From assembly GCA_007571365.1 (NCBI GenBank), contig RKRN01000109.1:34102-98101 (forward strand): a stretch of DNA of 64,000 bases, read 5' to 3'. A program made the position numbers and the translations under genes. This DNA is from Candidatus Latescibacterota bacterium (GTDB taxonomy: Bacteria > Latescibacterota > UBA2968 > UBA8231). Below, piece by piece: positions 28,292-46,672 of this stretch. The notes beneath the pieces were generated by a model. That model did not search any database and had not been told where the DNA came from. It saw nothing but the letters and a program-made list of their open reading frames with translations. Position 1 is the first letter of the stretch. Each line of letters opens with the position of its first letter.

Positions 28292-29403
28292 AGCCTGCCG
28301 ACCCTGTCATAGGTCGATCTACGGGGGAACAATTGATCAAGCAAACATGCGGAATCGCAGCGGCCGTGCTGCTGAGTATCTCACCGTCTCAGGCCCTACA
28401 GCGAACCGACACGGAATTCAAGATCTTCCAGTTCCCCGCCAACATGATTCCCCGCATTGACGGCCAGACCGACGACTGGACGATGGTACCCGACAGCTAC
28501 GCATACGGAACCGACCAGCTTTCCGACACGGTCATGGGGAACTTCACCAACTACGACCGCGAAGACTTGGACGTCACCGTGCGCGTCGGTTGGGTCAAGG
28601 GCCTGAACCGGCTCTATTTCCTCTACGAGGCGTACGACGACTATTGGAATATGTACTACAAATACGGTGACTTGTTCGAGATCGCCATTGACGCGGACCG
28701 GTCCGGCGGGCCGAACATTGCCAATCCCCAGATTGACGATCCATGGGAAAGCCACTTCCTGTTCAAGGGCGTACATGCCCAGAACTACCATATCTTCACA
28801 CCGTCCGGGGAAGGACGGGATTGGGTGTTCGTCTGGGGGTGTCAGCCGTGGATCGGCAGGTTGCCGTACGCCAATCACGCGTACTCGTACGATTTCGAGG
28901 AAGGGGAAAGCGGCAAGCTCGTGCTGGAGTTCTGGATCACGCCCTTCGACTACGCTCCGTACGATGGCCCGGAGCGGGCAGCCGTGTCAAAGCTGGAGGA
29001 GAATAGTTTGATCGCCCTGTCTTGGGCGGTCCTTGATTTCGACGAGGACCACACGGAATACGAGGGGTTTTGGAACCTTTCCCACGAGACGCGCATGGAC
29101 AGCGACGCCTCGAACCTGTGCGCATTCCGATTGATGCCGCTGGAACCGGAATACCTCAAGCCGCTTGAGGCGGAATACTCCTTTACGGTGGTCAATATGG
29201 ATCGCCGCCTGGTCGCCTTCACGGATCGGTCCCGCGGAGCGATCACGTCGTGGTCGTGGGACTTCGGCGATGGCAGATCGTCCACCGAACAGCACCCGAT
29301 TCACCAGTACGAGGAACCGGGCGAGTTCGTGGTTACGCTGGATGTCGAGGGACCGCAGGGAAAGGCCCGGCGCGTCAAAGTAAACCAAGTGATGGTAAAG
29401 TGA
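28288..29403 (+). CDS. Secreted CBM9-like domain plus PKD domain protein (start codon uncertain)
   Basis: PRIDGQTDDWTMVP...RLYFLYEAYDDYW...IAIDADRSGG; C-terminal PKD AFTDRSRGAITSWSWDFGDGRSSTEQHPIHQYEEPGEFVVTLDVEG. Confidence 0.75.
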   Translation: MKPADPVIGRSTGEQLIKQTCGIAAAVLLSISPSQALQRTDTEFKIFQFPANMIPRIDGQTDDWTMVPDSYAYGTDQLSDTVMGNFTNYDREDLDVTVRVGWVKGLNRLYFLYEAYDDYWNMYYKYGDLFEIAIDADRSGGPNIANPQIDDPWESHFLFKGVHAQNYHIFTPSGEGRDWVFVWGCQPWIGRLPYANHAYSYDFEEGESGKLVLEFWITPFDYAPYDGPERAAVSKLEENSLIALSWAVLDFDEDHTEYEGFWNLSHETRMDSDASNLCAFRLMPLEPEYLKPLEAEYSFTVVNMDRRLVAFTDRSRGAITSWSWDFGDGRSSTEQHPIHQYEEPGEFVVTLDVEGPQGKARRVKVNQVMVK

Positions 29404-29497: not shown

Positions 29498-31567
29498 TTG
29501 TCGTATCCTTGCACGGCTTGGTTCAGCCAGCCGCGCCTAGCATTCACAATCCGCCGGGTGCTTGGCATTTCAATGGTAGCAGCTTCCGCCAAATTTTTCT
29601 GCCAGATGACGACGGGAATGTTCCTGCTTGTCTTAATTGCCCTCGTTTTCAATGTGCACGACGCTTCGGGCGTGATCGTCTATCGCATCGGTACGCCCTT
29701 TTCCAAGGCGGAAAAGGATAGCCTAGAGGGGATCGGCATCGACTTCAGGGAGTTCGACTGGTCGGAAAACTCGCAGTTGGAGGATGCCCTCGATCCAGAC
29801 TCGCTACAAGTGGGCGTACTGCAGCCCAATTTCTTCGCAGAAAACGAGGATATCGCCGCAACGCTGTTGAGCAGAGACGGCTGGGTGGCAGTGCAGCGGG
29901 AAGCTGGTAGGAGCAACTTCGACCAGACGATCGGAAACCTGCTGGTCGATCAGGATCCGAGTACGGCGCACACATGGAAGGCCATAGATCAAGCGACCCT
30001 CGACTTTCGCGCCGCCTGTTGTAACGACCCGGGTGCATCGTTGAGAGTGCATTTCGATCTAGGGGGACGGTTCCTCATCCGGGAGGTGAGACTGCGGCCT
30101 CTGGCGGACAGGTCGGATCACTTCTTGGAGCAATTCGTCATCGGTGTCAGCGACGAGAGATATGGTGTAGTTGGACACGTCCCGAATCTCCCAACTGTCG
30201 TGGAGGTAGAGGGCAATACTGAACCCGAAGTCAGCGTGATGCTCGATCGACCCGTGACGACCAACTTTGTGCAGTTGCGGATCCTGCGGCAAACGCCCAA
30301 GGAGATCGGGCTGGCCGCTTTCGAGTTGTACGGGGGGGGGTATGTGAGGAAGGCCTCCTATGAATCCGACATCATCGAATTGGACGACATCGCCAGTCTA
30401 GGCGAGATCCGCTGGTCGGGACGGCAGGATCCTCACGCCCAGGTCGCGATTCGCACCCGGGCCGGTACCGACCCGCAGCCGGTCATTTTCTGGGAGACCC
30501 GCCCCGAGCAGCAGGACATCGTCAGGTTTCTCCAAGGGGGCGGCGATCTGAGTATGACGGAGTACAAGCACCAGTACGACAAACTGGCTGATTTCCTCAA
30601 GCCGGAAGACGAGCAGGACCGGGTGCGTCCCGACACGGAGCACTGGAGCTTCTATTCGAGTCCGTATGCGTTCGGGCATCCCGGGGTCCCCATTGCATCC
30701 CCCGGTCCGCGGAAGTTTGTCCAGATCCGAGTGGATTTTGCCTCTACCACCGTCAAAGAGGGGGGCAAGATCGACTATATAGAGTTCAAGGCGTCGGTCC
30801 CGCCGTCGGTTCGCCGCTTGGTAGGGGAGATTCACCCGACCGAGACCGAAGTGGGCGAAGCGACGCAATTTACGTATTACATCAGTCCGACGATCCGGTC
30901 CATCGACAGCAGTTTTGACGGGGTGGAGATCGCGACACCTTCAGGGGTAGTGTCGGTTGATTTGCTGCGCATAGCCGGCATCGATCAGGAGGATTTCTCG
31001 TGGACTATCCACGAAGACGGTCTGGGGTTTGAGGTTCTGCTCCCGCGCCGGTTGGAGTCGACGGACAGCGGTGCGCTAGTAGAGGTGGTGTTCACCGCTC
31101 CGGTGCTGAGAGAAGTGGGCACCCTGTTTGCAGGCAGGGTGTTCGACACGACTAGGCCGCATGAGGTGCGGCAGCGGGTCGTGCCGGGCAATGCTACCAA
31201 TGAGATCGAAGGCGATCGTTTGTCGGTGAGCACGGCTCTGAGCGAATCGCTGGTATTTTCGCCGCGGATCTCGCCGAATCCGTTCACGCCGAACGGCGAT
31301 GGGGTGAATGAAGTGGTGAACATATCGTACAAGCTGCTGCGGTTGATCTCAGCGGTGCCGGTGTCGCTCGAGATCTACGACCTGTCGGGCCGGTTGGTGA
31401 GGCGGGTGTATGAAGGGGAGGATCCGGTGGGTGAGTACCGCCACGTGTGGAATGGCCGGGATGACTCGAACGGGCTGGTGCCGCCGGGGCTGTATCTGTA
31501 CCGACTGGCGGTGGACGTGCAGCTAGAGAAGGAAACCCGCAGCGGCGTCGTTGCGGTGGCCTATTGA
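29498..31567 (+). CDS. Secreted surface protein with discoidin-like region and FlgD-like C-terminal domain (start uncertain)
   Basis: VHFDLGGRFLIREVRLRPL; C-terminal ISPNPFTPNGDGVNEVVNISYKL...VSLEIYDLSGRLVRRVYEG...HVWNGRDDSNGLVPPGLYLYRLAVDV...VVAVAY. Confidence 0.8.
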   Translation: MSYPCTAWFSQPRLAFTIRRVLGISMVAASAKFFCQMTTGMFLLVLIALVFNVHDASGVIVYRIGTPFSKAEKDSLEGIGIDFREFDWSENSQLEDALDPDSLQVGVLQPNFFAENEDIAATLLSRDGWVAVQREAGRSNFDQTIGNLLVDQDPSTAHTWKAIDQATLDFRAACCNDPGASLRVHFDLGGRFLIREVRLRPLADRSDHFLEQFVIGVSDERYGVVGHVPNLPTVVEVEGNTEPEVSVMLDRPVTTNFVQLRILRQTPKEIGLAAFELYGGGYVRKASYESDIIELDDIASLGEIRWSGRQDPHAQVAIRTRAGTDPQPVIFWETRPEQQDIVRFLQGGGDLSMTEYKHQYDKLADFLKPEDEQDRVRPDTEHWSFYSSPYAFGHPGVPIASPGPRKFVQIRVDFASTTVKEGGKIDYIEFKASVPPSVRRLVGEIHPTETEVGEATQFTYYISPTIRSIDSSFDGVEIATPSGVVSVDLLRIAGIDQEDFSWTIHEDGLGFEVLLPRRLESTDSGALVEVVFTAPVLREVGTLFAGRVFDTTRPHEVRQRVVPGNATNEIEGDRLSVSTALSESLVFSPRISPNPFTPNGDGVNEVVNISYKLLRLISAVPVSLEIYDLSGRLVRRVYEGEDPVGEYRHVWNGRDDSNGLVPPGLYLYRLAVDVQLEKETRSGVVAVAY

Positions 31568-33137
31568 CAGTCGTTTTTTCAGCATGACCAGTGCTAAGTT
31601 GCGTCGCCAATGCTGGTGCTGGCGACGGACAGCGCGCGGTGTCGTCGGCTGCGCGGCATTCGCCGTCTGCTTCTTGGTATGCCCCCAGACGCTTCTCAGC
31701 CAGGAGTCCGACGGACTCTTGGCCCGACAGAGTGAACACCACTACAGACTCGGTCTGCGCCATGTGCAGAGCGGTGACTTCCAGAGTGCCGAGCGGGAAT
31801 ACAGGAAAGCGATCGCGATGGACTCGACCGACATCCGCCCGCGCGACGGCCTCGGTTTCATCTATGCTCTGCAGAACAGATTTCGAGAGGCAGAGGTAGA
31901 ATTCGAGAGAGTACTGGAGATCGACCCCGACTACGCGCCGTCTCTCTACAAGCTGGGAAAGATCTTCCTGATCCGCCAAGATCGCGAAAAAGCGAAGGAT
32001 GCCTACGAAAGAGTGATCGCATCCGAGCCGACATACTTCCCTGCTCATCACGGGCTCGGCATGATCTACTCGCAGGAGGGAGAACCGACAGAGGCGGCGG
32101 AGCACTTCAAGACGGTGCTCCGGCTCAAGCCCGACTACGGCCCCTCTCGCTATCGACTTGGAGCCATCTATCTTCGAGAACAGAAATACGCTAAAGCGAT
32201 AGCAGAACTGCAGCGGGCTGCAAAGCTGGACGAGAATGAACCGTCGATCCACTACGTCTTGGGAAATGCGTACATGGCCATCGGCAGATTGAGCGAAGCG
32301 GCAGACTCATTTGCCGCAACCCTGCGGCTCGACCCCCGTCGTGCAGATGCACACGACAAGCTGGGGCTGGTCTACACCGAACAGTCACACGTGCCCTTGG
32401 GAGCGACAATGGCAGACCAGGACAAACTCGCGGCCGCCGTGGAGGAACACCGCAAGGCGGTTGCGCTGGCCCCCGACAACGGCTGGTTCCAGCACAACCT
32501 CGGCATGGCCTATGAGCGGCAGCGCAAGTACGAAAAAGCCGCGGCGCAGTACGGAAAGACCCTGACGGTGGATCCCGACCTTGGGTACACGCGCTATCGC
32601 CTCGGTATGATTTACTCCAGAAACAGGAAATACGAAGGGGCTATCGACCAGTACAGGCAGGCAATTGAGCGCGAGCCGGACAACACTCTCTTCCACTACG
32701 CCCTAGGATCTGTGTACGACCGGACCGGAAGGGCCGAAGAGGCGATTGCGGAGTATGATAGGGCCATCGCGCTCGACTACTTCAACACAGAAGCGCATTT
32801 CGGTCTTGCCAATGCCTATTTCAAGCAAGGGAATCGCGCAGAGGGCGAGAGGGCGATGCAGATATTCCGGAAGCAGCGCGAAGGCAACATCGCCGAACTC
32901 GAACGCCGCGTCGTCCTAGTCCCCGACAATCCGCAGTTTCACTTCGAGCTCGCTGTGCAGTACTCCAGACAGGGACGGGACATCAGCGCCATCAGTGAGT
33001 ACAAGCTCGCCATTGCTCTCGACCCGGCCAATGCCGAATACCATCGCCGTCTCGGCGACGCCTATCTGAAAACGGGCAGGTACCACGAAGCGGATGAGCA
33101 GTTCGAGATCGCTCGCCGTCTGGAGCCGGGACCATGA
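31551..33137 (+). CDS. TPR-repeat protein
   Basis: Successive 34-residue TPRs, e.g. YRLGLRHVQSGDFQSAEREYRKAIAMDSTDI, VRLGAIYLREQKYAKAIAELQRAAKLDENEP-type units. Confidence 0.85.
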   Translation: MRWPIDSRFFSMTSAKLRRQCWCWRRTARGVVGCAAFAVCFLVCPQTLLSQESDGLLARQSEHHYRLGLRHVQSGDFQSAEREYRKAIAMDSTDIRPRDGLGFIYALQNRFREAEVEFERVLEIDPDYAPSLYKLGKIFLIRQDREKAKDAYERVIASEPTYFPAHHGLGMIYSQEGEPTEAAEHFKTVLRLKPDYGPSRYRLGAIYLREQKYAKAIAELQRAAKLDENEPSIHYVLGNAYMAIGRLSEAADSFAATLRLDPRRADAHDKLGLVYTEQSHVPLGATMADQDKLAAAVEEHRKAVALAPDNGWFQHNLGMAYERQRKYEKAAAQYGKTLTVDPDLGYTRYRLGMIYSRNRKYEGAIDQYRQAIEREPDNTLFHYALGSVYDRTGRAEEAIAEYDRAIALDYFNTEAHFGLANAYFKQGNRAEGERAMQIFRKQREGNIAELERRVVLVPDNPQFHFELAVQYSRQGRDISAISEYKLAIALDPANAEYHRRLGDAYLKTGRYHEADEQFEIARRLEPGP

Positions 33138-34861
33138 GCCGACACCGGATGGCTCGCCGATCTCGCCTCTACACCGCCGGGCTCTATTTTCTAATCTCGA
33201 TTTCCCCCTGTGGCCGCTCGCAGGCCGACGACGGGCTCGCGCTCGGTGCCCGCGTGCAGTTTGTCGATGTCGCGGCAGAGGTTGGCGTCTCCTTGATGAA
33301 CGTCTCCGGTGATGGCGAACAGCAGTACGTGGTTGATGCCTTCATAGGGGGGTCGGCCTTCTTCGACTACGATCGAGACGGGGACCTGGATCTGTACGTG
33401 CTGAACGGGTCGAGAGTGGGCGGCTTTCCCGGCCGGGATCGTCCGCGCAATGCCCTCTACCGCAACGAGGGCGCGACGTTTTCAAACCCCACAGAAGAAT
33501 CGGGCCTCGGGGACACCGGTTGGGGAATGGGCTGCGCCGTCGCCGATTACGACAACGACGGGGATGGAGACCTCTACGTGACCAACTACGGCAGCAATGC
33601 GCTGTACGAAAATCGGGGAGATGGAGCCTTTGCCGACGTCGCGCAGCGTGCCGGAGTCTTAGGAGATGAGGCATTCAGCACCGGATGTGCTTTCTTCGAC
33701 TACGACCGCGATGGCGATCTCGACCTGTACGTGGCGAACTACGTCGATTTCGATCACTTCATGGAAACCACTCCCGACAGGAGACACGAGTGGCGGGGGT
33801 TGACCGTCCATTTCGGACCGCATGGGATGCGGGGGGAGGGGGACGTATTCTACCGCAACGAAGGCGAGGGCGTCTTTTCCGATGCGACTGCCGTAGCCGG
33901 TCTTGTGGATCGCGACCTGCTGTACGGACTCGGTGTCGTGGCGGGAGACTACGACAATGACGGCGATTCGGATATTTACGTGGCCAACGATACGGGGCCC
34001 AACTATCTCTACGAAAACAGGGGCGACGGGACCTTTACCGACGTGGCCTGGATGAAGGGTGCGGCATACGGCGAGGGCGGCCAGTCACAGGGATGCATGG
34101 GTATCGCCTTCGGGGACTACGACAACGACGCGTATCTGGACATACTGGTCACCAACTTCTGGGAAGAGACGAACACCCTGTATCACAACGACGAAGGGCG
34201 GTTTTTCTCGGATCTCACTTTCGATGCGGGAGTGGGGTTGGCCAGCTTCCAGTTCCTCGCCTGGGGCACCGAGTTCTTCGATTACGACAACGACGGCGAC
34301 AAGGATCTCTTCGTCGCCAACGGCCATGTCTATCCGCAGGTCGACAGGGCAAACTTGGGAGTTAGCTATGCCCAGACAAATCAGCTATTCGAGAATATGG
34401 GGGATGGGACCTTTGCCGAAGTGTCCCTGATCTCGGGCGCGGGACTGCAGATCGAGAAGGTAAGCAGGGGTGCTTCTTTCGGGGATTACGATGGGGATGG
34501 CGACCTCGACATATTCGTTCTGGAGCTCAACGATCTCCCGACGCTGCTGCGCAACGACGGGGGCGATAGCAACAACTATCTGATAGTCCAGACGGAAGGC
34601 ACAAAGAGCAACAGGGACGGCATAGGCACTCGGGTAAAACTCCGCTGCGGGGACGTGACTCAAGTGGGTGAGGTGCGGAGTGGCTCGAGCTATCTATCGC
34701 AGAACGACTCGAGGGTCCACTTCGGCTTGGGCGAGTGCATTACTGTAGCCCGGCTGGAGGTATTCTGGCCGAGCGGTCTAGTTGAGTGCTTTGAAGGTCT
34801 GGCCTCCAACAGGGTTCTGGTGATTCGCGAGGGAAGCGGAATCGTTCAGTCGAGCCAGTGA
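33134..34861 (+). CDS. CRTAC1-family FG-GAP/VCBS repeat protein with ASPIC/UnbV C-terminal domain
   Basis: Repeated AVADYDNDGDGDLYVTNYGSNALYENRGDGAFADVA-type Ca-binding units; C-terminal GIGTRVKLRCGDVTQVGEVRSGSSYLSQNDSRVHFGLG. Confidence 0.88.
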   Translation: MSRHRMARRSRLYTAGLYFLISISPCGRSQADDGLALGARVQFVDVAAEVGVSLMNVSGDGEQQYVVDAFIGGSAFFDYDRDGDLDLYVLNGSRVGGFPGRDRPRNALYRNEGATFSNPTEESGLGDTGWGMGCAVADYDNDGDGDLYVTNYGSNALYENRGDGAFADVAQRAGVLGDEAFSTGCAFFDYDRDGDLDLYVANYVDFDHFMETTPDRRHEWRGLTVHFGPHGMRGEGDVFYRNEGEGVFSDATAVAGLVDRDLLYGLGVVAGDYDNDGDSDIYVANDTGPNYLYENRGDGTFTDVAWMKGAAYGEGGQSQGCMGIAFGDYDNDAYLDILVTNFWEETNTLYHNDEGRFFSDLTFDAGVGLASFQFLAWGTEFFDYDNDGDKDLFVANGHVYPQVDRANLGVSYAQTNQLFENMGDGTFAEVSLISGAGLQIEKVSRGASFGDYDGDGDLDIFVLELNDLPTLLRNDGGDSNNYLIVQTEGTKSNRDGIGTRVKLRCGDVTQVGEVRSGSSYLSQNDSRVHFGLGECITVARLEVFWPSGLVECFEGLASNRVLVIREGSGIVQSSQ

Positions 34862-34894
34862 CGCGGGGGCAGACGGGCATTGGGTGCTAGGAGC

Positions 34895-36526
34895 TCACAG
34901 TTTGCTTGAGGGCCATGCAAAAGGGTGCCGGCCGTCGTGCCCGTACGTGAAGAGCGCTGTCCGCCTCGGTGACTCGGCCTCCCAGCGGTACGCCCCGTGA
35001 CAGACCGTCCCTCCCAAAAAGAAGAGAACAGACCCGCGACGCATTGGAATGTGGCGGATCGGCGTGCGCTCGTTGCAGACCCGCACCGAATGCGGCAAGG
35101 GGTAGCACGATTTGTGACTGCCCGGCACTACGACAAATCCGCCATCGTCGGGCCCGACGTCGTTGAGCTGCCAGGCGACGTTGATGCCCGACCTCGTGTG
35201 TACGCGCCCGTTTACCATCTCGTAGTGCTTGCCGATGCCGGTCGGGTTGGCGTTTCCCGAGTGCAGCATTTGCCCGCTTGAGCCTTTGACGTGGCACAAG
35301 GCCGTGTTCTGAGTTACCCTGTACCCTGGTCCAATCATCCAGTTCAGGCGCTGGATGACGGCCGGGTGCGCCAGCATTTTGAGGAAAGGCGCATTGTGCG
35401 GCGCCGGTAGCTGAAACAAGTCCTTCAGGTCCGGCCGGCCCGTGCCCGATATCGTCGGCGCCCCAGGGATGTCGGCAAGCGTCACGTCCCCGTCAAGCTT
35501 GTCGCCTACGCCCCGGTACACTAGGTGATTGAGGTTGGCGTCGATGCCCGCCACGGCCGCATTGACCCAATCGTCGTCCATGACGCCCTCGACCAACAGG
35601 AAGCCCTGGGTGTCAAACGCCCAGCGCTCGGCATGATCATCTCGGCGTTCGAACTTGAGGGCAGAGGAGGCCCTCTGCGCCGCGTCGGCATCGGCGGCCG
35701 AGGTGAGCCAGGTGGTCGTGCCGTCCGATAGGAGCAGGCGACGCGAGTCGCCGCCCGCCAGCACGGTTTGCTCGGCCTCGCCCAGCCCTTCCGCCCATGC
35801 GGGCAGGGGCTGCTTGTCCGGCTGGTCAGGTGGCCCCTGTGGCCGAGCCGTGCGCGAAATGAAATTTACCACGAGTAGCTCGCCTCCGTCGCCCTGCGGG
35901 CAAACCCCGTGCAGTGTGCTGGCGGCGCACAGCAGCACGTCGCCCGCCGCCAGAGCCGGGCGCTCGGCGAAGCGGCTGGAGGATGGAAGCGGTGGGGCCG
36001 GCAGTCCGCTTTTGTGCGAGGAGGGCACGACCACCAGCGGGCACTTGCCTTCTGCGGAGTCCGCGAGGGCGATGGCCACCACCAGCCCTTGGCACTGCCG
36101 GATGCGGACCTCTTCCCAGGCGCCGCCGGCCCGCTGGAGCTGAGTTCCGTCGGCGTTGCGGCCATTCCACCCCGCCAGGTTGATGTACGCCCGGTCCAGC
36201 GTATGCACCCCGCCTTCCAGTCGCAGCGAGGCCTCGTCGTACCCTCCTGCGGCGGCAGAGACATGCCTCGCCGGGCCGTCTTGGCGAAAGCCGTCGCCGC
36301 ACAACTCGCGCACATAGCGTCCGATGGCACCGGCCTCGCTGCAGAGATCGCCCAGCCCATCGCCGCTGTCGCGGCACGCGGACAGCTCGGCTTGGCTGAG
36401 GAGTTGTGGTAGCACGACGAACCCGAGCGCGTCGAAGGTGAAGTCCTGCTCTATGGTGAGGATCGATGGCTGGTGTACGTGCGTCGCCTCGTTCCAGTGG
36501 TTCACGGTGTAAGTGTCAATGCCCAT
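34895..36526 (-). CDS. Tandem phytanoyl-CoA dioxygenase-like (PhyH) protein, possibly degenerate metal sites
   Basis: Two PhyH-like halves: FTFDALGFVVLPQLLSQAEL...VVVPSSHKSG...GDVLLCAASTLHGV and FDTQGFLLVEGVMDDDW...WQLNDVGPDDGGFVVVPGSHKS...VLFFLGGTVCHGA. Confidence 0.75.
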   Translation of the reverse strand: MGIDTYTVNHWNEATHVHQPSILTIEQDFTFDALGFVVLPQLLSQAELSACRDSGDGLGDLCSEAGAIGRYVRELCGDGFRQDGPARHVSAAAGGYDEASLRLEGGVHTLDRAYINLAGWNGRNADGTQLQRAGGAWEEVRIRQCQGLVVAIALADSAEGKCPLVVVPSSHKSGLPAPPLPSSSRFAERPALAAGDVLLCAASTLHGVCPQGDGGELLVVNFISRTARPQGPPDQPDKQPLPAWAEGLGEAEQTVLAGGDSRRLLLSDGTTTWLTSAADADAAQRASSALKFERRDDHAERWAFDTQGFLLVEGVMDDDWVNAAVAGIDANLNHLVYRGVGDKLDGDVTLADIPGAPTISGTGRPDLKDLFQLPAPHNAPFLKMLAHPAVIQRLNWMIGPGYRVTQNTALCHVKGSSGQMLHSGNANPTGIGKHYEMVNGRVHTRSGINVAWQLNDVGPDDGGFVVVPGSHKSCYPLPHSVRVCNERTPIRHIPMRRGSVLFFLGGTVCHGAYRWEAESPRRTALFTYGHDGRHPFAWPSSKL

Positions 36527-36673
36527 AGTTAGACCTCAATGGATTCTGGAAGGTAAACGTTGTTTTTTGGCATCTCTCCGTCCCACTCAACCCATTAACA
36601 TCCGCGGCTATACTATATATCTCAGGCACACAGGCTTTTTAATAGGTTGAGTTGTGGCCAGTACACAGGACCT

Positions 36674-38335
36674 CTACCGCACGGCAAACGCTGCCTCGAG
36701 CCTGTGCTCGTGGATTGACACCTCTGACTCGTAGCGGCTGTGCAGTTCCTCCATGTATTCATTGAACGCGTTCCGGTGCCTCTCGCGTCTGAGCTGAGAT
36801 CGGACCCTCATCTCAGCTTCGGCGAAGGTCTCGCGCTTGCGTTCCCGGGAGAGCACTTTGAAGATGGAGTAGCCCTCCTGCACCTCGACCGGTCCGGTGA
36901 GCTCGCCGATTTGGGCCTCGACCGCAGCTTCCACGAAACCGCCGAACTGGGGCGATTCGTAACGATGCACGTGGAATCGACCCTCGTCATCGCGCACTTC
37001 GAGCGAGCGAATCGAATGTCTCTTCGCCAGATCGCCAAAAGCGGCACCGTCCTCGATCATCCCTTTCAACCGCAGTGCTTCCATTTCTGTTCTTACGAGG
37101 ATCTCCTGTACCTCGGTCTGTTCGGGATGCAGGAATCTCTCGGCGTTGGCCTCGTAGTACTGGCGCAGGTCGTCTTCCGCGATAGTCACTCTCTCCTTTA
37201 ATACCTTGGACCTGAGGCCCCGTACCAGCAACTGCTTTCCCTGCTCTTCGAGCCATCGGGCCACCATCTCTTCGCGATCGATCCCTTGGCGCCTAGCTGC
37301 CTCCTGAATCATCACGTCCGGGACGATGTACTGCTCGGCGAAGGAGATCACCTGCTCGGCGTCGCGGAATGTCTCCAGGATACTGCCCTTGCGGCTTTTG
37401 GTCGCGCCAATGAGGTCGGCGGCTGTGATCTCTCCGCCATCGTACTGGTAGAGTGCGATCGCAGATGGGGCCGGGCCGACGTCCACCGCACCGGTGCGCA
37501 GTGCCTCGACGACAGCGGCTATGGCGTCTCGGACCGGCTCGAGGCGGTATCTATCCCTCAATTCCGCTACCAGTTTGGCCTTCGCGATTCCGCGCTTCTT
37601 TCGTTCGAATTCTTTCGCGATTCTCGTCCGCTGCCGCAGATTGAGTTGAGCGGTCATCTCATCGAGGATCTTGAAGACGATGTATCGGTTGCCGATTCGG
37701 ACAGGGTCTGACACCGATCCTTCCGTGAGCCCGAACAACTTCTCGGCGATGACGGGAATGATGTCGGCCTTGGTGGCGAACCGGCCGGTGTCTCCGCCCC
37801 GGGCAGCGGTCTCTTCGTTCATCGACAGCTTGTGCGCGACGTCGGCGAAGCTCGCCCCGGCCTCGATCTGTTTGGCGGCCTTCTCCGCCGTCTCAAGGTC
37901 GGCGACCACGATTTCTCCCAGTCTGATGGCGCGGGCGAGCCCCTCTTGGTCTATGTACTCTTCTACTTCACCGTCTTCTACCGTAGCCTCGATCGTTCTG
38001 CGCTCGTATTCATCGACGAGCTTGGCCTTCCTGATCCGGTTCATCTTGGTCAGGTAGGCCGAACTCCTATCGAAACCTTGGCTTCGGGCTTCCATCAGCA
38101 GCAGTTCCGTGTCGATCATGGTCTGCAGATGGACCCTCAACTGCTCCTTCCCGGCCTCTTCGCCCTTGGTGTGCTCGGGCAGTTTGGCGAGGAAACCTCG
38201 CACGTCCCGTACAGTAATCGTCTGGTCGCCAACCTCGGCGACCGTGGGATTTTCATCCTGCGGTCCGCAGCCGGTAAAAATTAAAAGGAGTGCTAGACTG
38301 ATTAGCGTTCCGCAGGAAAGAGAAAAAACGCGCAT
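36674..38335 (-). CDS. Lipoprotein PpiC/SurA-type peptidyl-prolyl isomerase
   Basis: Lipobox LLIFTGCG; two parvulin-like segments (ARAIRLGEIVVADLETAEKAAKQIEAGASFADVAHKLSMNEETAARGGDTGRF; EVQEILVRTEMEALRLKGMIEDGAAFGDLAKRHSI). Confidence 0.8.
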   Translation of the reverse strand: MRVFSLSCGTLISLALLLIFTGCGPQDENPTVAEVGDQTITVRDVRGFLAKLPEHTKGEEAGKEQLRVHLQTMIDTELLLMEARSQGFDRSSAYLTKMNRIRKAKLVDEYERRTIEATVEDGEVEEYIDQEGLARAIRLGEIVVADLETAEKAAKQIEAGASFADVAHKLSMNEETAARGGDTGRFATKADIIPVIAEKLFGLTEGSVSDPVRIGNRYIVFKILDEMTAQLNLRQRTRIAKEFERKKRGIAKAKLVAELRDRYRLEPVRDAIAAVVEALRTGAVDVGPAPSAIALYQYDGGEITAADLIGATKSRKGSILETFRDAEQVISFAEQYIVPDVMIQEAARRQGIDREEMVARWLEEQGKQLLVRGLRSKVLKERVTIAEDDLRQYYEANAERFLHPEQTEVQEILVRTEMEALRLKGMIEDGAAFGDLAKRHSIRSLEVRDDEGRFHVHRYESPQFGGFVEAAVEAQIGELTGPVEVQEGYSIFKVLSRERKRETFAEAEMRVRSQLRRERHRNAFNEYMEELHSRYESEVSIHEHRLEAAFAVR

Positions 38336-38367
38336 CGCGTACCTCCACTCAAGCTCGCGTTGGTGCC

Positions 38368-41076
38368 CTAATCTAGACCGGCGTACACCGTGGCAAAGGT
38401 CACTCTGCCCGTCTTGGACTTGTCATCTATCGCTCTTCTCGTCAATCTCATACCCATCTTCGTCTCCAAGCGGTAACCTAGGTAACTGGTGTTGTTCGAG
38501 AACTGTATCGCTCCGACGATTTCACCGAAATCGTCGATCAGTCCCTCCTTGACCGCGGTCTCGGATTGGCGCAGTTGGTTGAAGATCGTGTACTCCACAC
38601 CGGCCTGCATGGAGGAAGAGGAAAACACCGGCCAGCGCGCCAGCAGGGAGAGTTGCACCGCGTTTTCCCGGCGCTTGGGATCGGATCTCAGGGCCGGGGA
38701 CTCGAGCCTAAGCTCATTCTTTATTCTCGGCATGAGATCGACATTGGCGACCTTGCGCTCGAGGTCCACCTTGTTGATGAGACCGAAGAAAGTGTAGTCC
38801 TCGCGCAGATCGGGCTGTCGTTCGTTCTGGTGCCAGCGATCGTATTTGAACTTACTCACGAAATTCACATCCTCGATCTTGGTGTACTTGAAGCTCAGGA
38901 ACGTGGAGTTTATCCACGTGTCCTGAGCCGCCAAAGGATCGATGGTTGGAACGTTCCGCCGCTCGAACTCGCTCCACTGGCGAAGATCGTTCTCGATGGT
39001 GTCCTTGGCGATTCTGAAGTTCTCGTAGATTTTCAACCTGCCAAGACCCGGATAGTCCCGTTCGAGGGTGAAGAGCACGTAGTTCGTCGTGTTCTCCCCG
39101 TCGCCGGCAATCAGTCTCTCATCCGTTCGTCCGACGATCAGCCTGATGCCCGGCAGCAGGTCGACGCCGCCGTAGATGTTGTACCCTCGGTGGTCCCTCG
39201 GATAGGGAAAATCCGGCTCGTCGTCGTTTTCGAACCGATCTACCCAAGTATTGTTGTTCATATCCAATCCGAACAGGTACTCCGGCCGGTCTGTTCCGTA
39301 TCTCAAGAACGGCTCGTCGTAGTCCGGGACGAGATTGGGCAGATCTTCGCTGTCGTTCTGGTTAAAATCGGATATGAAGTCGAGGTTTTCGTCGTACCCG
39401 GGAAACACCTCGGTGTCTATGTTTTGGAATATCCTCTGCCAGTCGGGGAATCGGTCCTGATCGTCGTTGTCGTCGACGAGTTCATAGAAGAACCTCCCCT
39501 TGTCTGCGTAGTCTATGTTGGTCTCGCCCCTGGCCAAGATGGTGCTGGTGTTGTAGTTGTGGGCCATGCTATAGGCTTCGCCGAAGAAGAAGAACGGATG
39601 GGCGATCTTCGACAAGTTCAACATCCAGCCATCGCCTTCGTCGGAGGTCCCTAGGTGCTCGGTATGCGCCCTGTTGGGGTACTTCCTATAACTGATGCTG
39701 CGATCCCATTCCCCATATAGGTTGAATCCCCAGACGCGGGTTGCCTCCAGCGTGAACCCGAATAGCTCGGTAGCCGTCGGCAGACCATACGGGATCTTCA
39801 GGATGGTCAGGTTGGAGCCATCTTTGACGTTTTCAGCGGCCCTAGCAGCCAGCAGATAGACGTTGGCCAACTGCCTGTCGAACTGGCGGTCCGAGGTTAT
39901 CTCGATCCGGTAGTCGTTGGCGACTACCAACTCGAATGTCACCTTTCTTATCTCTGACGGATCCGGGCCCGTGTACGTCCCCACCGAGAAGTCGTAGACC
40001 AATTCGATCTGCTCGGAGCCGTTCGCCTCCCAGAACCCCAGCTTCTGAAAGCCGCCTTGGGGCGCGGGAATCAGCCCGACTTCGCTGGCCCGGACGGTCT
40101 CCCTGTCGAAACGCACATCCCCCCTCGCATCGATCGTTTCGACGTCGGCCTCTATGATCAGGTCCCACGCAAACAGCGCGGCGCCGCCTTCGTTGTCCTC
40201 GGGCGAGTCGTCCGAGAGACGCACGAAGACTTGGGCGACGTTCTCCGCATTCTGACTGGAGACGATCGAACCGCTTCGCGGGCTGCCCTCGAAGGCGTCG
40301 ATGAGTTGGGAGGAGTTGTGGGCGCTCACGTAGTTGGCACCGAGTCTGAGATAATCTCCAATCTGGGTCGTCGCGCGTCCGCCGGTCAGGGTCGTCGTGC
40401 TCGTCGTCTGGTTACTGGGGCTTCGCGGGCCGGCGGCACCCAGCGAGCTGATCCGCGAGAGGAGAGCCGTGGCCTCGTACTTGTCGGACTGATAGTCGAT
40501 CTGGATGCCATCGAACGCCGGCTTGGAGAAGGTCATCGGGGTCAGGGTTGACCGAATCTCGTCCCCTATGGTGATGGCCAGATTGTGCTGTCCCTTCTGA
40601 TCGGAGGCTATGACCAGATTGCTGAACCACTGTTGGAACCGTTCGGTCTTGAACAGGTTGCTTCCCCCCTGCTGGGGCTGGGTCTGGCTCCAGTCGTAGA
40701 TCAGCCATCCTCTGGTGATGTACGAACCGTAGATGTCGTAGAAGTAGTCCCCCTCGAGATTGGTCGTTACATAGCGCTGGTAGTGGTCTCTCGCGTAGTT
40801 GCTGTACTCCCACTGCTTCCACTGATATTCGCGAAACAGCTCCTGTGGAACGTACCACTTCTTGACCGCCGGGTCTAGCGCACCGAATAGGACGCCGGGC
40901 CCGGTCGGTTCGAACGTGAGCTCGCCGCCGCGGCGAAACCCCGTTATCCGATCTCGATCGGGACCTTGGGCTTCCGAGCGAGTACTGTACAGCAGGATTA
41001 CCGAGACGATGATGCACCACGTGGCCAGCGTACCGGCTAGGCGCATCGCACCTCTGACTCTATGACCGGTCACCAT
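38368..41076 (-). CDS. Large secreted, probable outer-membrane/cell-surface protein of unknown family
   Basis: Start placed at MVTGHRVRGAMRLAGTLATWCIIVSVILLYSTRSEA (signal peptide); alternating polar/aromatic strands in the C-terminal half (KFKYDRWHQNERQPDLREDYTFFGLINKV...). Confidence 0.6.
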   Translation of the reverse strand: MVTGHRVRGAMRLAGTLATWCIIVSVILLYSTRSEAQGPDRDRITGFRRGGELTFEPTGPGVLFGALDPAVKKWYVPQELFREYQWKQWEYSNYARDHYQRYVTTNLEGDYFYDIYGSYITRGWLIYDWSQTQPQQGGSNLFKTERFQQWFSNLVIASDQKGQHNLAITIGDEIRSTLTPMTFSKPAFDGIQIDYQSDKYEATALLSRISSLGAAGPRSPSNQTTSTTTLTGGRATTQIGDYLRLGANYVSAHNSSQLIDAFEGSPRSGSIVSSQNAENVAQVFVRLSDDSPEDNEGGAALFAWDLIIEADVETIDARGDVRFDRETVRASEVGLIPAPQGGFQKLGFWEANGSEQIELVYDFSVGTYTGPDPSEIRKVTFELVVANDYRIEITSDRQFDRQLANVYLLAARAAENVKDGSNLTILKIPYGLPTATELFGFTLEATRVWGFNLYGEWDRSISYRKYPNRAHTEHLGTSDEGDGWMLNLSKIAHPFFFFGEAYSMAHNYNTSTILARGETNIDYADKGRFFYELVDDNDDQDRFPDWQRIFQNIDTEVFPGYDENLDFISDFNQNDSEDLPNLVPDYDEPFLRYGTDRPEYLFGLDMNNNTWVDRFENDDEPDFPYPRDHRGYNIYGGVDLLPGIRLIVGRTDERLIAGDGENTTNYVLFTLERDYPGLGRLKIYENFRIAKDTIENDLRQWSEFERRNVPTIDPLAAQDTWINSTFLSFKYTKIEDVNFVSKFKYDRWHQNERQPDLREDYTFFGLINKVDLERKVANVDLMPRIKNELRLESPALRSDPKRRENAVQLSLLARWPVFSSSSMQAGVEYTIFNQLRQSETAVKEGLIDDFGEIVGAIQFSNNTSYLGYRLETKMGMRLTRRAIDDKSKTGRVTFATVYAGLD

Positions 41077-41104
41077 GTGACTCCCCCTTACCTTTCGCGA
41101 AAAA

Positions 41105-42850
41105 TCAATAGACCAAAGGCAAGATCGCAGTCTTGCTTTCCTTACCTGTATCTGCAGCGACTTCCACGCGCACGAGGTAGACTCCCGGCGATAGCATTTG
41201 TCCGTTGTTGTCCGCGCCGTCCCAGATTCTCTGATATCTTCCACTGATGTCGAGGTCGGAGTAGAGCACCCTTTTGCGGTGGCCGGCGAGGTCGTAGACT
41301 TGTACCGACACCAGAGTACTGCTCGTCAGGTTAACGATATCGTAGGTGACAATGGCTTGGTCGTTCACTCCATCGCCATTGGGCGTAAACGGAGCCGGGG
41401 CAGCCTCGAGGAAGTAGATGCGGTTGCCGGCGACCCGGGTGGTGACCGACAGGTCGTCGCCCACGGCGACGGGGTCGGCGTCCACGTCTCCCGGGACGAG
41501 CGTCTGCGGCAGGTTCTGCGGTCTCTGGGTATCGAAGACCCGGCCGACGAAGACGGTGTTGTAGTGCAGCGCGATGCTCTCGAACACGACGCGCAGCAGC
41601 CGGTCGTCGCCGGTGATCCTCGGGAAGCTGATTCGGACGCCGCCGATGTCGCCGTTTTCTTCTTCGATGTCCTCCTTGTCCCACGCCACGTCGGTCCCGT
41701 CGATCTGGACGGATCGGATGACCTCCACTGGTGCCTGCGTCTCGATGTCGAGCCGGTCGAAGCCACTGCTGTTGTAGCAGCGTACCCAGTAGGTCAGCTC
41801 GGTCGTCTGCCCGATCACGGCGTCTTGGGGCCACACCTCCCCTACCACGGAATCGGCCAGTGCTGGCGAGACCTCCACGGCGATCGAATCGACCGTCGCT
41901 GCCGAAAGGATGTCGCTGCTCTGGAACAGAACGCGAAACTGCCAGTACTGGCGAGGTGCAGGTGATGCGATCTGCGTGCGGACGCTGGCCGGATAGGGAC
42001 GAGACCATCCGCTCCACTTTAGGCTATCGCTCGGGTCCGGCGTACTGCCGCTCCGGGTGGATACGGTAGCAGATACTTTGGTAGGCTCTCCTATCGTCTT
42101 CTTTGCCCACATTATACTGCCAAAGACGGCCGGCCGACCTTCGTCGAACACCTTCGAGGTGTACGCAGCAGCCGATACGAACCCTTCGCCGAAGACCTCG
42201 AACTCGTCGATCTCCCATTCCCCCCGAACGAGCTGTTTCACCTCTATAAAACGCACGAACTGCAGCGGCACATCCATGTCGACGACCGGGTCATCATTGC
42301 GCTCGACGGCCCTGAAGAGCCTGAGATCGGGATTACCGGAGAGGGTCTTCTGCGCCTCGCTGCCGTCGTTCAGCGATACCTCGTACCCTTTTAGAAAAAA
42401 CTCCTCGAACCCTTCGCGGGGGTAAAACCTGATCCTGTTGATTCCGAAACGCTCGCCCAGATCAAATCTCAGTATGATCCCTGTGGCCGACGGGATCTTG
42501 ATTTCAAAGGCCGTGTTCCTGCCGTCCACCATGTTGTCCAACAAGTCCTCGAATTCACTCTGGGTGACTTCGAGGACCGTGCGTGCATTTGGCGACGTTA
42601 TTTGCCCCCCCCTTTCGATCAACTTCAGGGAGATATTGTCTTCAGGATCGTTCTGTAAAGGTTGAATGGAACCGGGGTTGGCTGCGAAATCGATGACCGC
42701 TATGTCAGAATGTGCCTGATCCCAGGCGCGGGAACCCGGGCCACCTCCGAAGACGATCGTCTCTCCATTGCCTGCCGCCGCAAGTCCGAGGAGAGCTACG
42801 GACAGAACGGGCAGGGCCACTGTTCTATGAGGTAATGTTCCAGTTATCAC
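41105..42850 (-). CDS. Secreted surface protein with discoidin-like region and FlgD-like C-terminal domain (GTG start proposed)
   Basis: GTG at 42850 gives (M)ITGTLPHRTVALPVLSVALLGLAAAGNG signal peptide and removes overlap with upstream gene; LRFDLGERFGINRIRFYPREGFE; APFTPNGDGVNDQAIVTYDI...VSVQVYDLAGHRKRVLYS...RIWDGADNNGQMLSPGVYLVRVEV...LPLVY. Confidence 0.75.
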   Translation of the reverse strand: MITGTLPHRTVALPVLSVALLGLAAAGNGETIVFGGGPGSRAWDQAHSDIAVIDFAANPGSIQPLQNDPEDNISLKLIERGGQITSPNARTVLEVTQSEFEDLLDNMVDGRNTAFEIKIPSATGIILRFDLGERFGINRIRFYPREGFEEFFLKGYEVSLNDGSEAQKTLSGNPDLRLFRAVERNDDPVVDMDVPLQFVRFIEVKQLVRGEWEIDEFEVFGEGFVSAAAYTSKVFDEGRPAVFGSIMWAKKTIGEPTKVSATVSTRSGSTPDPSDSLKWSGWSRPYPASVRTQIASPAPRQYWQFRVLFQSSDILSAATVDSIAVEVSPALADSVVGEVWPQDAVIGQTTELTYWVRCYNSSGFDRLDIETQAPVEVIRSVQIDGTDVAWDKEDIEEENGDIGGVRISFPRITGDDRLLRVVFESIALHYNTVFVGRVFDTQRPQNLPQTLVPGDVDADPVAVGDDLSVTTRVAGNRIYFLEAAPAPFTPNGDGVNDQAIVTYDIVNLTSSTLVSVQVYDLAGHRKRVLYSDLDISGRYQRIWDGADNNGQMLSPGVYLVRVEVAADTGKESKTAILPLVY

Positions 42851-42888
42851 TTGCTGAACCCAGGCTCCTTGGTGTCCTGTCGCGGAAA

Positions 42889-45606
42889 CTAGTAGGCGAC
42901 GCGCACCAATCGGTGGATCGAGGTTTTCTTTTTCGACGTCGAATCCACTTTTAGGTCGATGTGCATCAGATAGATCCCCGGTGGTACGACCGCTCCCGAT
43001 TGGTCGACGCCCGTCCACGCCACCGTATGACGGCCTGCCGTTATGGTCGTCTCGGCTATACGCGCCACCGGCCGGCCGGCCAGATCGTACACGTCCACTT
43101 GGACCGGCGCTGAACTGAGCACCCGCATCAGCGAAAAACGGACCTCCAGCTCGTCGTTGACGCCGTCGCCATTGGGCGTGAAAACGCGATCGACCTGTAG
43201 ATCCCCTAGCAACTCGCCGCGCTCCAGTGCCAACACCACCGTCGTCTCGCTGTCCACAACCCCGTTGGCATCGCCGTCGTCTACCCGCTGCCACGAGTTC
43301 TCGAACTGCGAGTGCCCCATGGAACCGATGAAAAACGTGTTGAACCCGAATATGGTCGCCTCGAACTGGAGCTCCACCAGCGCGGATCCCCTTATCGTCT
43401 TGATCGGGGCCGGCAGACGCACCCACAGCGAATCCGTCTCCATCACCACCTCGAACCCCTCGCTCTCGGCTGTATACGTTACGGCGTCCTGCCCCGTCAC
43501 GTCGACATGCACCTGTTTCAGCGTCATGTCGACGCCCTCGGGTCCCTCAATGAGGATCTCGTCGAACCCCCCGCTGCCCGCGTCGAAGGTCGGGCGGATG
43601 AAATACGACATTTGCTGCTTCGTGCCGATCTCCTCCAGGCGCGAGGGCAGTATCTCGCCCACGATCGCGCCGGCCACCGGCGTCACGAAGTTCAGCACCA
43701 CCGAACGCAGCGTGGCCGCCGCCTTGGGGTCTTCCGTCAGGAAGATCGCCCTGATGGCGACGAACCGTCTGGGACTGGGCGAGGTAATTTTTGCGCCTGA
43801 ATCGAAGTAGGGCTGACTCCAGCCGCTCCAGTCATTGCCCGGGCGCGTCTCGGTTAAGACCGGCCCTACCGAAGCATCCCCGAAGAACTTTTTGTCCGTC
43901 TCCCAGGCCTCGGCCGCCTCCTCTTCGGTGCCCGGATACAAATCCCCGTTCTTCTTGTAGTAGCGGGTTATGCTCTCGACCGTATCGCCGGTCCGGGTTT
44001 GCAAGATCAGCTCCGTACCCGGCGGCACATCGGCCTCCCACTCGATGGTAGCCAAGTTCTGAGGGGTCCGCGCCACCTCTATGAACGGGGCCTCCCCTCC
44101 GAACTCGGACGAGATCTGCGACTCCGGCAGGAATCCTTCCCCGAAAAACTGGACCTCCGACACCCCGTGGCTCCCTTGCCCGGGCTCGTACGTAGAGCGG
44201 TCGTGGAGCCTATAGGTAAAGGCAAAATGCTCAACCTTCGTGAGCGGGAACTTGAAGTCGTGGAAGTTCTGCCCCCGCACGATGTCGCTGAGCGACCCCA
44301 CCGTCTTCCAGGCTAGTTCGCCGCCGGCATTGGTGGAGCCGTCCGAGAGTTGAATGCGGTAGGCTCTGAACGGAGGTGGGTTGGGGAGGGCGTGGAGTAT
44401 TCTGATATTGTCCACAAAGTAGGAGCCTCCGAGATCTATGAACATCGAGCGCTCCGCATCCCGCGGATCCGCAATCGGCAACCTGTTGGGATCGTAACTC
44501 CCGTTGGCAGACCAGAACACGACCTCGCCGAAGAGGTCCCCATCTACCACGGCCGCCCCCTTGTTGACATTCTCCCGGGCGGTCACCCTGCCGCCCCGCT
44601 CCAGTACGCCCGTGCCGATGTTGTCGCCGATGGTCCAGACCTCGATCTCGGCCAGCCTGGGTATTTCGCGGCGGTAGTAAACCACCGGCCCCTGCCGCTC
44701 GGTGCCCGCCAGAGCTTCCCAATCCTCTTTCCCATCCAGCAACCTCACCGTCCCCGACACTTCTCGCCGGAAGTACTCTATCTCTCCCTGTTGATCGGCT
44801 GGCAAACTATCGTATTCGGACTGAGAAACCTGCCTCGCCCTGCCGAAGTCGCTGTCCGTGATCCCCACCCCGACGTATTGGATGACGTCGCCGGTGAAGT
44901 CGCCCAGTGCATCGGGCCACTTCGTCGGTAGCTGTCCGGTCAGGTCGATCTCGAAAACCCGCTCGTTCTTGTTCGGGCCGTCCGTGGTGAAGCGCGTCCG
45001 GAAAAGGAGCTGACCGAGCGTTTTCTGTCCCTGTGAAGTGATCACCTTGAACTGCAGAAAAGGGTCTCCCAGCTCTTCACCGACAAACTTGAGGACGATC
45101 TTGGTGGCCGATACCGTCCGCCCCAGATCGATCTGCACCCACCAGTCCTGCAACAGGTCGGAGGGGTCCGGTTCCCAGAAGGTGTCCATCCTGCCATCCA
45201 TGAGGTCGATGCCGCCCGAGCGATTAGACCCGGCATTCAACACACCGCCGCCGAAATCGACGGCATTGAGGACGGCGTTGATGCCTGGAACCACGACTTC
45301 TTCATCTTCTATTTGCAGTCCCGTGTGCTTGCGGATGAAGGCGGGTTTCACTCCCTCATCGCCGATCTGGACCGTGTTGGCAGCGGAGTGCCAGTGTTCC
45401 CAATGCGCCCTAGAATCGACGACCACTCTGCCTGAACCCAGGGAGTACCCCTCCTGTCCCCAGCACAGACATGCCGCCGACAACGTCAACGCGGAACAGA
45501 CGAGTGCCGTGCGGAGGGGGGCCGCTAGCCGTTGAGCGCCGACCCATCCCCGCTCGCGGTGCCTACCTACGCTGCGCGGCACTCGGGTTCTTGTCGAGTT
45601 CAGCAA
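42889..45606 (-). CDS. Secreted surface protein with discoidin-like region and FlgD-like C-terminal domain
   Basis: Signal region ALVCSALTLSAACLCWGQ; WWVQIDLGRTVSATKIVLKFVGEE; VFTPNGDGVNDELEVRFSLMRVLSSAPVQVDVYDLAGRPVARI...VAWTGVDQSGAVVPPGIYLMHIDL...LVRVAY. Confidence 0.78.
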   Translation of the reverse strand: MLNSTRTRVPRSVGRHRERGWVGAQRLAAPLRTALVCSALTLSAACLCWGQEGYSLGSGRVVVDSRAHWEHWHSAANTVQIGDEGVKPAFIRKHTGLQIEDEEVVVPGINAVLNAVDFGGGVLNAGSNRSGGIDLMDGRMDTFWEPDPSDLLQDWWVQIDLGRTVSATKIVLKFVGEELGDPFLQFKVITSQGQKTLGQLLFRTRFTTDGPNKNERVFEIDLTGQLPTKWPDALGDFTGDVIQYVGVGITDSDFGRARQVSQSEYDSLPADQQGEIEYFRREVSGTVRLLDGKEDWEALAGTERQGPVVYYRREIPRLAEIEVWTIGDNIGTGVLERGGRVTARENVNKGAAVVDGDLFGEVVFWSANGSYDPNRLPIADPRDAERSMFIDLGGSYFVDNIRILHALPNPPPFRAYRIQLSDGSTNAGGELAWKTVGSLSDIVRGQNFHDFKFPLTKVEHFAFTYRLHDRSTYEPGQGSHGVSEVQFFGEGFLPESQISSEFGGEAPFIEVARTPQNLATIEWEADVPPGTELILQTRTGDTVESITRYYKKNGDLYPGTEEEAAEAWETDKKFFGDASVGPVLTETRPGNDWSGWSQPYFDSGAKITSPSPRRFVAIRAIFLTEDPKAAATLRSVVLNFVTPVAGAIVGEILPSRLEEIGTKQQMSYFIRPTFDAGSGGFDEILIEGPEGVDMTLKQVHVDVTGQDAVTYTAESEGFEVVMETDSLWVRLPAPIKTIRGSALVELQFEATIFGFNTFFIGSMGHSQFENSWQRVDDGDANGVVDSETTVVLALERGELLGDLQVDRVFTPNGDGVNDELEVRFSLMRVLSSAPVQVDVYDLAGRPVARIAETTITAGRHTVAWTGVDQSGAVVPPGIYLMHIDLKVDSTSKKKTSIHRLVRVAY

Positions 45607-45754: not shown

Positions 45755-46672
45755 CTATTTGGAGAAGCCCGCCTTAATGCGGCCCCAGCTATCGTCCTCG
45801 ACCGCTGTGGCGTCGGTGTCGGACACCCAGTTGTTTGCGTCAAAACCAAGTAGCACGTAGTCCACTAGGGAGTCGGCGTGGAAGTACATGTTGATGTCGC
45901 CCGTGGAGACCCAGTAGCCGTTGTACGAATTGCCCGGGCCGTTGTCATCGTCCTGAATGGCCATGCCGATGCCCATGACCTGGCCTTCCTCCAAGTCGTG
46001 GATAATCAGGTCGGGATCGTCGGAACCGGTCGAACTGGCAGGCAGGTCGTCGAAGGTGGTGAACCAACTCTCCTGATAGAGGGTGGCGGGTCCACCGGCC
46101 TCGCCCTCAACGTCCCATCTGATGCCGGCGTAAGGCTCCACGGAAGCCCATACTCCGCCGCCCCACAACCACAGGTTGTTGTCCGCGTTATTGAGCGACT
46201 GCTGCCAGTCCTGCGCGGTGGCCCCGGCCCATCGCGCCGGATCTAGGTCGATAGATTCCACGCCTTGGAACTGTCCGCCGCTGTGGTCGGCATCAAGCAC
46301 GAGCTCGAGTTTGTCGTTAGTGTCGTCGAGGGTGCCGTACCAGACGTCGTCGAACCTTTCCTCCATGACGTACACAAGGTTGGTCTCTGGGTGCCAGCCG
46401 ACGATGATGCGCTCGGCGAGGTTGCCCGGATCCGGGTCGCCTTGGGTGCCCGTGACGACCTCGACCAAGTCATCTTGGGTTACCCAGAAGACAGACGGTA
46501 CGTTGTCCCAATCGCTGAGATCACCGTCCATCACGACGTCCCTGATTCCATCGACGTCGATGGGCACCTGTACCGCCGCCCAGTTCCGGTCTGTCCGCTG
46601 GTGGGCCGAACTCGGGGTAAAGGAGGCGAGAACGAGGCCCAAAACGGTAGCTATAACGATAATCCTCTTCAC
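45755..46672 (-). CDS. Secreted CBM9-like domain protein (GTG start)
   Basis: GTG at 46672 preceded by AAAGGAG 8 nt upstream gives (V)KRIIVIATVLGLVLASFTPSSAH; VMDGDLSDWDNVPSVFWV...TNLVYVMEERFDDVWYG...LELVLDADHSGGQ. Confidence 0.75.
   Translation of the reverse strand: MKRIIVIATVLGLVLASFTPSSAHQRTDRNWAAVQVPIDVDGIRDVVMDGDLSDWDNVPSVFWVTQDDLVEVVTGTQGDPDPGNLAERIIVGWHPETNLVYVMEERFDDVWYGTLDDTNDKLELVLDADHSGGQFQGVESIDLDPARWAGATAQDWQQSLNNADNNLWLWGGGVWASVEPYAGIRWDVEGEAGGPATLYQESWFTTFDDLPASSTGSDDPDLIIHDLEEGQVMGIGMAIQDDDNGPGNSYNGYWVSTGDINMYFHADSLVDYVLLGFDANNWVSDTDATAVEDDSWGRIKAGFSK

Follow-up and report, generated by a model that had tools for sequence, protein, structure and literature searches.

Why are genes for secreted proteins with a common and unusual C-terminus followed, in a member of the Candidatus Latescibacterota, by the gene for a large predicted outer-membrane protein, and could the one protein serve the delivery of the other? 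The question is raised by a 64,000-nucleotide stretch of contig RKRN01000109.1 (assembly GCA_007571365.1), referred to here as the window. Its source assembly is a MAG of 5.47 Mb in 344 contigs that is 91.7% complete, with 6% contamination. We refer to the tailed proteins as cargo and to the outer-membrane protein as the barrel.

The operon and its tailed proteins

Four genes on the minus strand of the window form an operon, with gaps of ~28-38 bp, in which cargo of 905 aa and 581 aa precede the barrel and a PpiC lipoprotein (Table 1). This order, the three cargo reading frames and their endings are as a preliminary description of the window had given them, except that the word giant was an overstatement for proteins of 581-905 aa. 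The third paralog lies ~5 kb past the end of the operon on the opposite strand. In five related loci (L065, L067, L068, L069 and L071) cargo genes of ~650, ~880 and ~580 aa lead in this order to the barrel and the PpiC lipoprotein, and the closest homologs of the third paralog (~62%) are the first genes of these operons. Given this homology and the displaced position in the window, the third paralog was probably once part of the same operon and moved away later.

Table 1. Features of the cargo-barrel locus, with positions counted from the first nucleotide of the window.
Feature	Position	Strand	Description
Cargo 1	42889..45606	-	905 aa with a signal peptide, CBM32-like domains of F5/8 type C, a middle domain and a CHU_C/FlgD-like tail (LVRVAY end)
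Cargo 1 tail domain	42892..43197	-	residues ~804-905, FTPNGDGVN ... LVRVAY; CHU_C 34.5 bits, FlgD_ig 34.1 bits
Cargo 2	41105..42850	-	581 aa with a CBM32-like domain, beta-sandwich domains and a tail (ILPLVY end)
Cargo 2 tail domain	41108..41392	-	residues ~487-581; CHU_C 32 bits
Predicted outer-membrane beta-barrel, new family	38368..41076	-	902 aa; >20 predicted strands
PpiC-type lipoprotein	36674..38335	-	two rotamase domains; last gene of operon
Third paralog	29498..31567	+	689 aa; tail ending VVAVAY
Third-paralog tail domain	31274..31555	+	residues ~593-686; CHU_C 39 bits, FlgD_ig 34.4 bits

The three cargo are true paralogs, as had been supposed, with 27-30% identity over ~330-580 residues (E 1e-34 to 1e-60). 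Their tails, previously described as FlgD-like, exceed the gathering score of PF13585 (CHU_C, the Pfam T9SS signal domain) in all three proteins and the cut-off of PF13860 (FlgD_ig) in two of them; CHU_C is matched by 54 of 55 cargo relatives. Against TIGR04131, the NCBIfam type B model, the window cargo reach 16-20 bits where the cut-off is 35. The Ig-like tail fold does align with that of the hook-cap protein FlgD (3osv, E 1e-9), but only the tail domain takes part in the alignment, and the cargo are multi-domain proteins with signal peptides rather than hook-cap proteins. The discoidin-like region noted earlier corresponds to a significant F5/8 type C match in the 905-aa protein (PF22633/PF00754). 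For the 581-aa protein, a structural model of mean pLDDT 92 comprises, besides the tail, a CBM32-like domain and further beta-sandwiches; in Foldseek it matches CBM32 domains at TM 0.70-0.79 (normalised to the target) and also PorU and PorZ, which are T9SS CTD proteins. Judging from these domain and model matches, the cargo are probably sugar-binding surface proteins.

The shared C-terminus goes well beyond chance, as the preliminary description had implied: a profile of the tail found 272 ORFs in the examined loci, 257 of which carry it at the extreme C-terminus. Genome-wide, the cargo family has at least 130 members, with at least 150 matches to FlgD_ig and at least 137 to a full-length cargo profile (127 of 287 candidates scored). 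Cargo outnumber barrels by ~3:1, and many are orphans with no adjacent barrel. One cargo-only array (L172, G000:C108:1-20000) holds six tandem tailed cargo genes and not a single barrel within 20 kb.

The end of the tail is highly uniform. From 249 tails (protein >300 aa, domain at the very end) 178 were retained as non-redundant, and 170 of these end in Tyr, compared with 17 of 589 other ORFs in the same loci; positions -3 and -5 are both hydrophobic in 174 of the 178. In the predicted structure, this terminal motif lies in the final beta-strand of the Ig-like fold. The position of a FlgD/Ig-like domain at the extreme C-terminus recalls type A CTD cargo, which follow the PorV/PorU route. However, the type A-like tails of this very genome form a second class, with PNPFN-type motifs and mostly K/R or KLP at the end, whereas the barrel-linked class has a PNGDG motif and ends in Tyr.

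The barrel family and its pairing with cargo

The barrel of the window has no relative in Pfam, NCBIfam or among PDB sequences, and in particular matches no Plug or receptor model of Pfam or NCBIfam. TIGR03519, the PorP/SprF model, finds no match in the genome, the window barrel included. The AlphaFold model (pLDDT 76, pTM 0.74) has more than 20 long antiparallel strands, an inserted beta-sandwich (~299-412) and a conserved Asp/Asn-rich loop (~530-628), with a poorly predicted N-terminal region (40-150). Since Foldseek returned many kinds of outer-membrane barrels, all at low TM-score, these matches to a predicted structure establish the general class alone, that of an outer-membrane barrel. 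PorP/SprF, SusC and other catalogued barrels were ruled out as identities for it on the grounds of the missing sequence relatives and the generic, low-scoring fold matches, and searches of the open-licence literature found no description of this barrel.

The genome has ~50 loci with barrel paralogs, as against 16 Plug matches that represent TonB-dependent receptors. About 40 of the paralogs are close to the window barrel (37-75% identity); those of a second group, on contigs C70, C72, C74, C92, C157 and C159, share ~25-33%. A crude scan assigned a signal-peptide-like N-terminus to 144 of 159 barrels. Close relatives occur in MAGs labelled Candidatus Latescibacterota or Gemmatimonadetes and in the single-contig Latescibacteria assemblies OX638377.1 and OY282352.1. 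In a divergent subfamily (L161, L162, L163 and L170) two or three barrels stand in tandem runs, in places beside both K/R-ending, type A-like tails and Tyr-ending ones.

Is the proximity of cargo and barrel in the window a general feature? Neighbourhoods were counted in the window plus 39 stretches of its own genome, chosen for barrels or tails, and in 80 loci of other genomes, chosen for the barrel, a choice that biases upward the share of cargo having a barrel. The immediate same-strand upstream neighbour of a barrel is a tailed cargo gene in 29 of 49 cases in the own genome and in 82 of 109 elsewhere, while the remaining genes of these loci (250 aa or longer) have cargo in that position in 15 of 221 and 14 of 215 cases (Fisher p 2e-15 and 6e-38, both optimistic because neither paralogs nor related genomes count as independent observations). 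When intervening barrels are passed over, cargo is the first gene upstream in 40 of 50 barrel loci here and in 98 of 111 in other genomes. The link that had been suspected from the window is therefore real, general and directional: within 1 kb of barrels, 19 FlgD_ig matches lie upstream, none downstream and none on the opposite strand, and most cargo-barrel gaps are below ~65 bp. A locus consists of a variable number of genes for tailed cargo, followed by one, two or three barrel genes and in some cases by a PpiC lipoprotein. The lipoprotein, which had been regarded as a component of the system, does belong to the operon of the window but is optional elsewhere, following the barrel directly in 7 of 46 cases in this genome and in 28 of 107 in others.

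Distances between barrels correlate with those between their adjacent cargo (Spearman 0.53 over 72 pairs, against a maximum of 0.19 in 500 shuffles), which supports the notion that cargo and barrel are inherited as units. The correlation resides in the N-terminal part of the cargo (0.51). The idea that covariation would reveal a specific match of tail and barrel was not borne out, since the last 105 residues reach 0.13 and stay within the shuffles (maximum 0.20), although short, saturated tails could mask such a signal. The pairing is kept among barrels that share 40-50% identity and in different classes of the phylum, which suggests a functional dependence.

Type IX genes and distribution across the phylum

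As the preliminary description stated, no T9SS gene lies in the window, but the genome carries SprA (606 bits, contig C77) and, next to each other, PorU (617 bits) and PorV (226 bits; G000:C243:7130-11488). An independent sorting system with no T9SS, as it proposed, is not supported and was rejected because these three are present; the CHU_C matches throughout the cargo family speak against it as well. Of the refuting outcome that the description named for itself, one half is seen: T9SS core genes are accompanied by ordinary K/R-ending tails, yet the Tyr-ending tail class is tied to the barrel. For the GldK/L/M/N part of a canonical T9SS, the GldM model gave no match in this or any genome searched and is thus uninformative about an absence of GldM. 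Searches of the open-licence literature found no description of a T9SS in Latescibacterota: a 2024 paper lists other FCB phyla with a possible T9SS but not this one (PMC11285876), and the passages searched of a 2015 analysis of Latescibacteria genomes do not mention the system (PMC4454575).

Across 65 genomes of the phylum, SprA is found in 64, PorP/SprF (TIGR03519) exceeds its cut-off in none, and the barrel occurs in 40, namely in f1 and in f5-f9 (a single f9 genome is without a match), with no match in the genomes of f2, f3, f4 and f10. Sub-threshold matches to PorP/SprF may represent PorV-like barrels. The cargo follow the barrel: in the 10 genomes examined, full-length cargo at E <1e-100 appear solely where the barrel is present, with best E-values of 1e-139 to 1e-228 in five barrel-positive genomes and of 1e-12 to 1e-14 in four barrel-negative ones. 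In G007 the best cargo reaches 5e-23, and its barrels are divergent too. In small samples picked by a PorU-model search, tails ending in Tyr make up 8 of 29 in two genomes with the barrel (G050 and G051) and 0 of 33 in two without it (G038 and G016). These results support an association of the cargo family with the Tyr-ending tail and the barrel across the phylum. PorV-family matches number 10 in the window's genome and 33 in the barrel-less G038, a hint of a possible expansion of PorV-like barrels in genomes that lack the new one.

From gene pairs to possible function

The closest precedent in gene order comes from the Bacteroidota. In F. johnsoniae, porP/sprF lies directly downstream of the gene for a type B cargo, and the barrel is needed for secretion (PMC12618676); type B cargo are anchored by PorP-like barrels, with PorE as a periplasmic lipoprotein (PMC9143113). 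The Latescibacterota loci resemble such systems (SprB-SprF, PG1035-PorP-PorE) in that a cargo gene stands directly upstream of a dedicated barrel gene, a periplasmic lipoprotein gene sometimes comes next, several paralogous pairs occur per genome, the cargo ends in a CHU_C-like domain, and SprA is encoded in the genome. They differ in the barrel, which is unrelated in sequence and, with ~900 aa and its many predicted strands, larger than the PorP model of ~300 positions, in the tail, which ends in Tyr and scores under the TIGR04131 cut-off, and in the lipoprotein, a PpiC isomerase unlike PorE. Moreover, there is one conserved multi-domain cargo architecture, and ~50 barrels instead of a handful. 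Since the barrel is not PorP/SprF and the tail falls below the type B cut-off, we liken the system to type B without counting it as a member.

By this analogy it is appealing to propose, with about even confidence, that the window is one of ~50 cargo/barrel loci of a lineage-specific surface system in which the barrel acts as a dedicated shuttle or anchor of T9SS-linked cargo, following the gene logic of SprF with an unrelated and larger barrel. The cargo would cross the inner membrane via Sec and leave through the SprA translocon by means of the CHU_C-like domain, a route that we infer from the tail family and from the presence of SprA, PorU and PorV. It would then be passed to, or held by, the neighbouring barrel, which would take the place of PorP/SprF. 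Perhaps cargo are marked for the barrel by their conserved, Tyr-terminated last strand, as opposed to the PorV/PorU route of K/R-ending tails, while the CBM32-like domains could bind glycans at the surface and the PpiC lipoprotein could assist the periplasmic folding of barrel or cargo. More tentatively, and with some doubt on our part, the Tyr-ending proteins would constitute a third class of T9SS cargo that is delivered to and held by the ~50 barrels, such that the cell displays tens of barrel-anchored glycan-binding proteins. Several points weigh against a shuttle or anchor: the tail does not covary with the barrel, cargo are in roughly threefold excess, the barrel is unlike PorP, TIGR04131 stays below its cut-off and GldM was not detected.

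The main rival is a pair for glycan uptake or capture in the manner of SusC/SusD, with the barrel as channel, the CBM32-like cargo as surface capture subunits, and the tail serving T9SS export only. It is favoured by the covariation result, in that the N-terminal binding region of the cargo, and not the tail, varies together with the barrel, and by the CBM32-like fold. Likewise, many paralogous pairs of barrel and surface-binding protein, co-encoded, co-evolving and with a probable carbohydrate-binding domain, are what SusC/SusD present in Bacteroidota, where dozens occur per genome, and the barrels outnumber the TonB-dependent receptors here. However, SusC combines a Plug with a 22-stranded barrel, whereas no plug domain or receptor-model match was detected in the window barrel, and no energy-coupling part was identified. 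The cargo, too, are unlike SusD-type lipoproteins, as they carry a C-terminal T9SS-like tail, and a crude scan found a lipobox-like signal in just 10 of 251 of them. On balance we consider an uptake pair rather unlikely; it would share with the shuttle or anchor the export of cargo via the SprA translocon.

It is also conceivable that the cargo are ordinary type B-like T9SS substrates beside a structural outer-membrane protein, for example, a scaffold for adhesion or for a surface layer, which has no part in transport, anchoring or uptake, and that their pairing merely reflects duplication of whole operons. Operons have clearly been duplicated as a whole, some cargo are orphans or stand in arrays of cargo alone, and the best fold matches include the surface-layer barrel SlpA of Deinococcus, at a generic level only. 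But the persistence of the pairing in divergent barrels and across classes makes this improbable. More doubtful still is the earlier proposal of an export independent of the T9SS, in which the Tyr-ending cargo would be secreted or threaded by the barrel itself. The tight gene pairing and co-occurrence, an aromatic end that sets these tails apart from K/R-ending ones and a barrel of more than 20 strands could all be read in this way, yet SprA is nearly universal in the phylum and accompanied by PorU and PorV in this genome, the tail scores as the Pfam T9SS signal, and many cargo have no barrel next to them.

The rule that type B T9SS cargo depend on PorP/SprF shuttles derives from the Bacteroidota. 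The present lineage possesses SprA but nothing recognisable as PorP/SprF, and the corresponding gene position, next to a distinct class of tails, is taken by an unrelated barrel family of ~50 copies. This may represent a new way to deliver or hold surface proteins alongside a known secretion machine. Should the barrels indeed carry or anchor the cargo, the T9SS can take different outer-membrane partners, and dozens of natural cognate pairs would be at hand for studies of recognition. Either way, the barrels constitute a previously unannotated family of outer-membrane proteins that outnumbers the TonB-dependent receptors of this genome.

Around the cargo genes, the window holds several further genes. 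The third paralog is followed at 31551-34861 (plus strand) by a TPR-repeat protein and an FG-GAP/ASPIC-UnbV protein, and homologs of the latter lie just past the operon, on the opposite strand, in several relatives. An 880-aa protein at 25649-28291 (plus strand) has a sub-threshold match only to the GH123 N-terminal model and is possibly a glycoside hydrolase. Two secreted proteins flank the cargo genes, one of 371 aa with a C-terminal PKD domain (28288-29403, plus strand), the other of 332 aa and no family (45755-46753, minus strand); by eye they have the short motifs QRTD, after the signal peptide, and DADxSGG in common.
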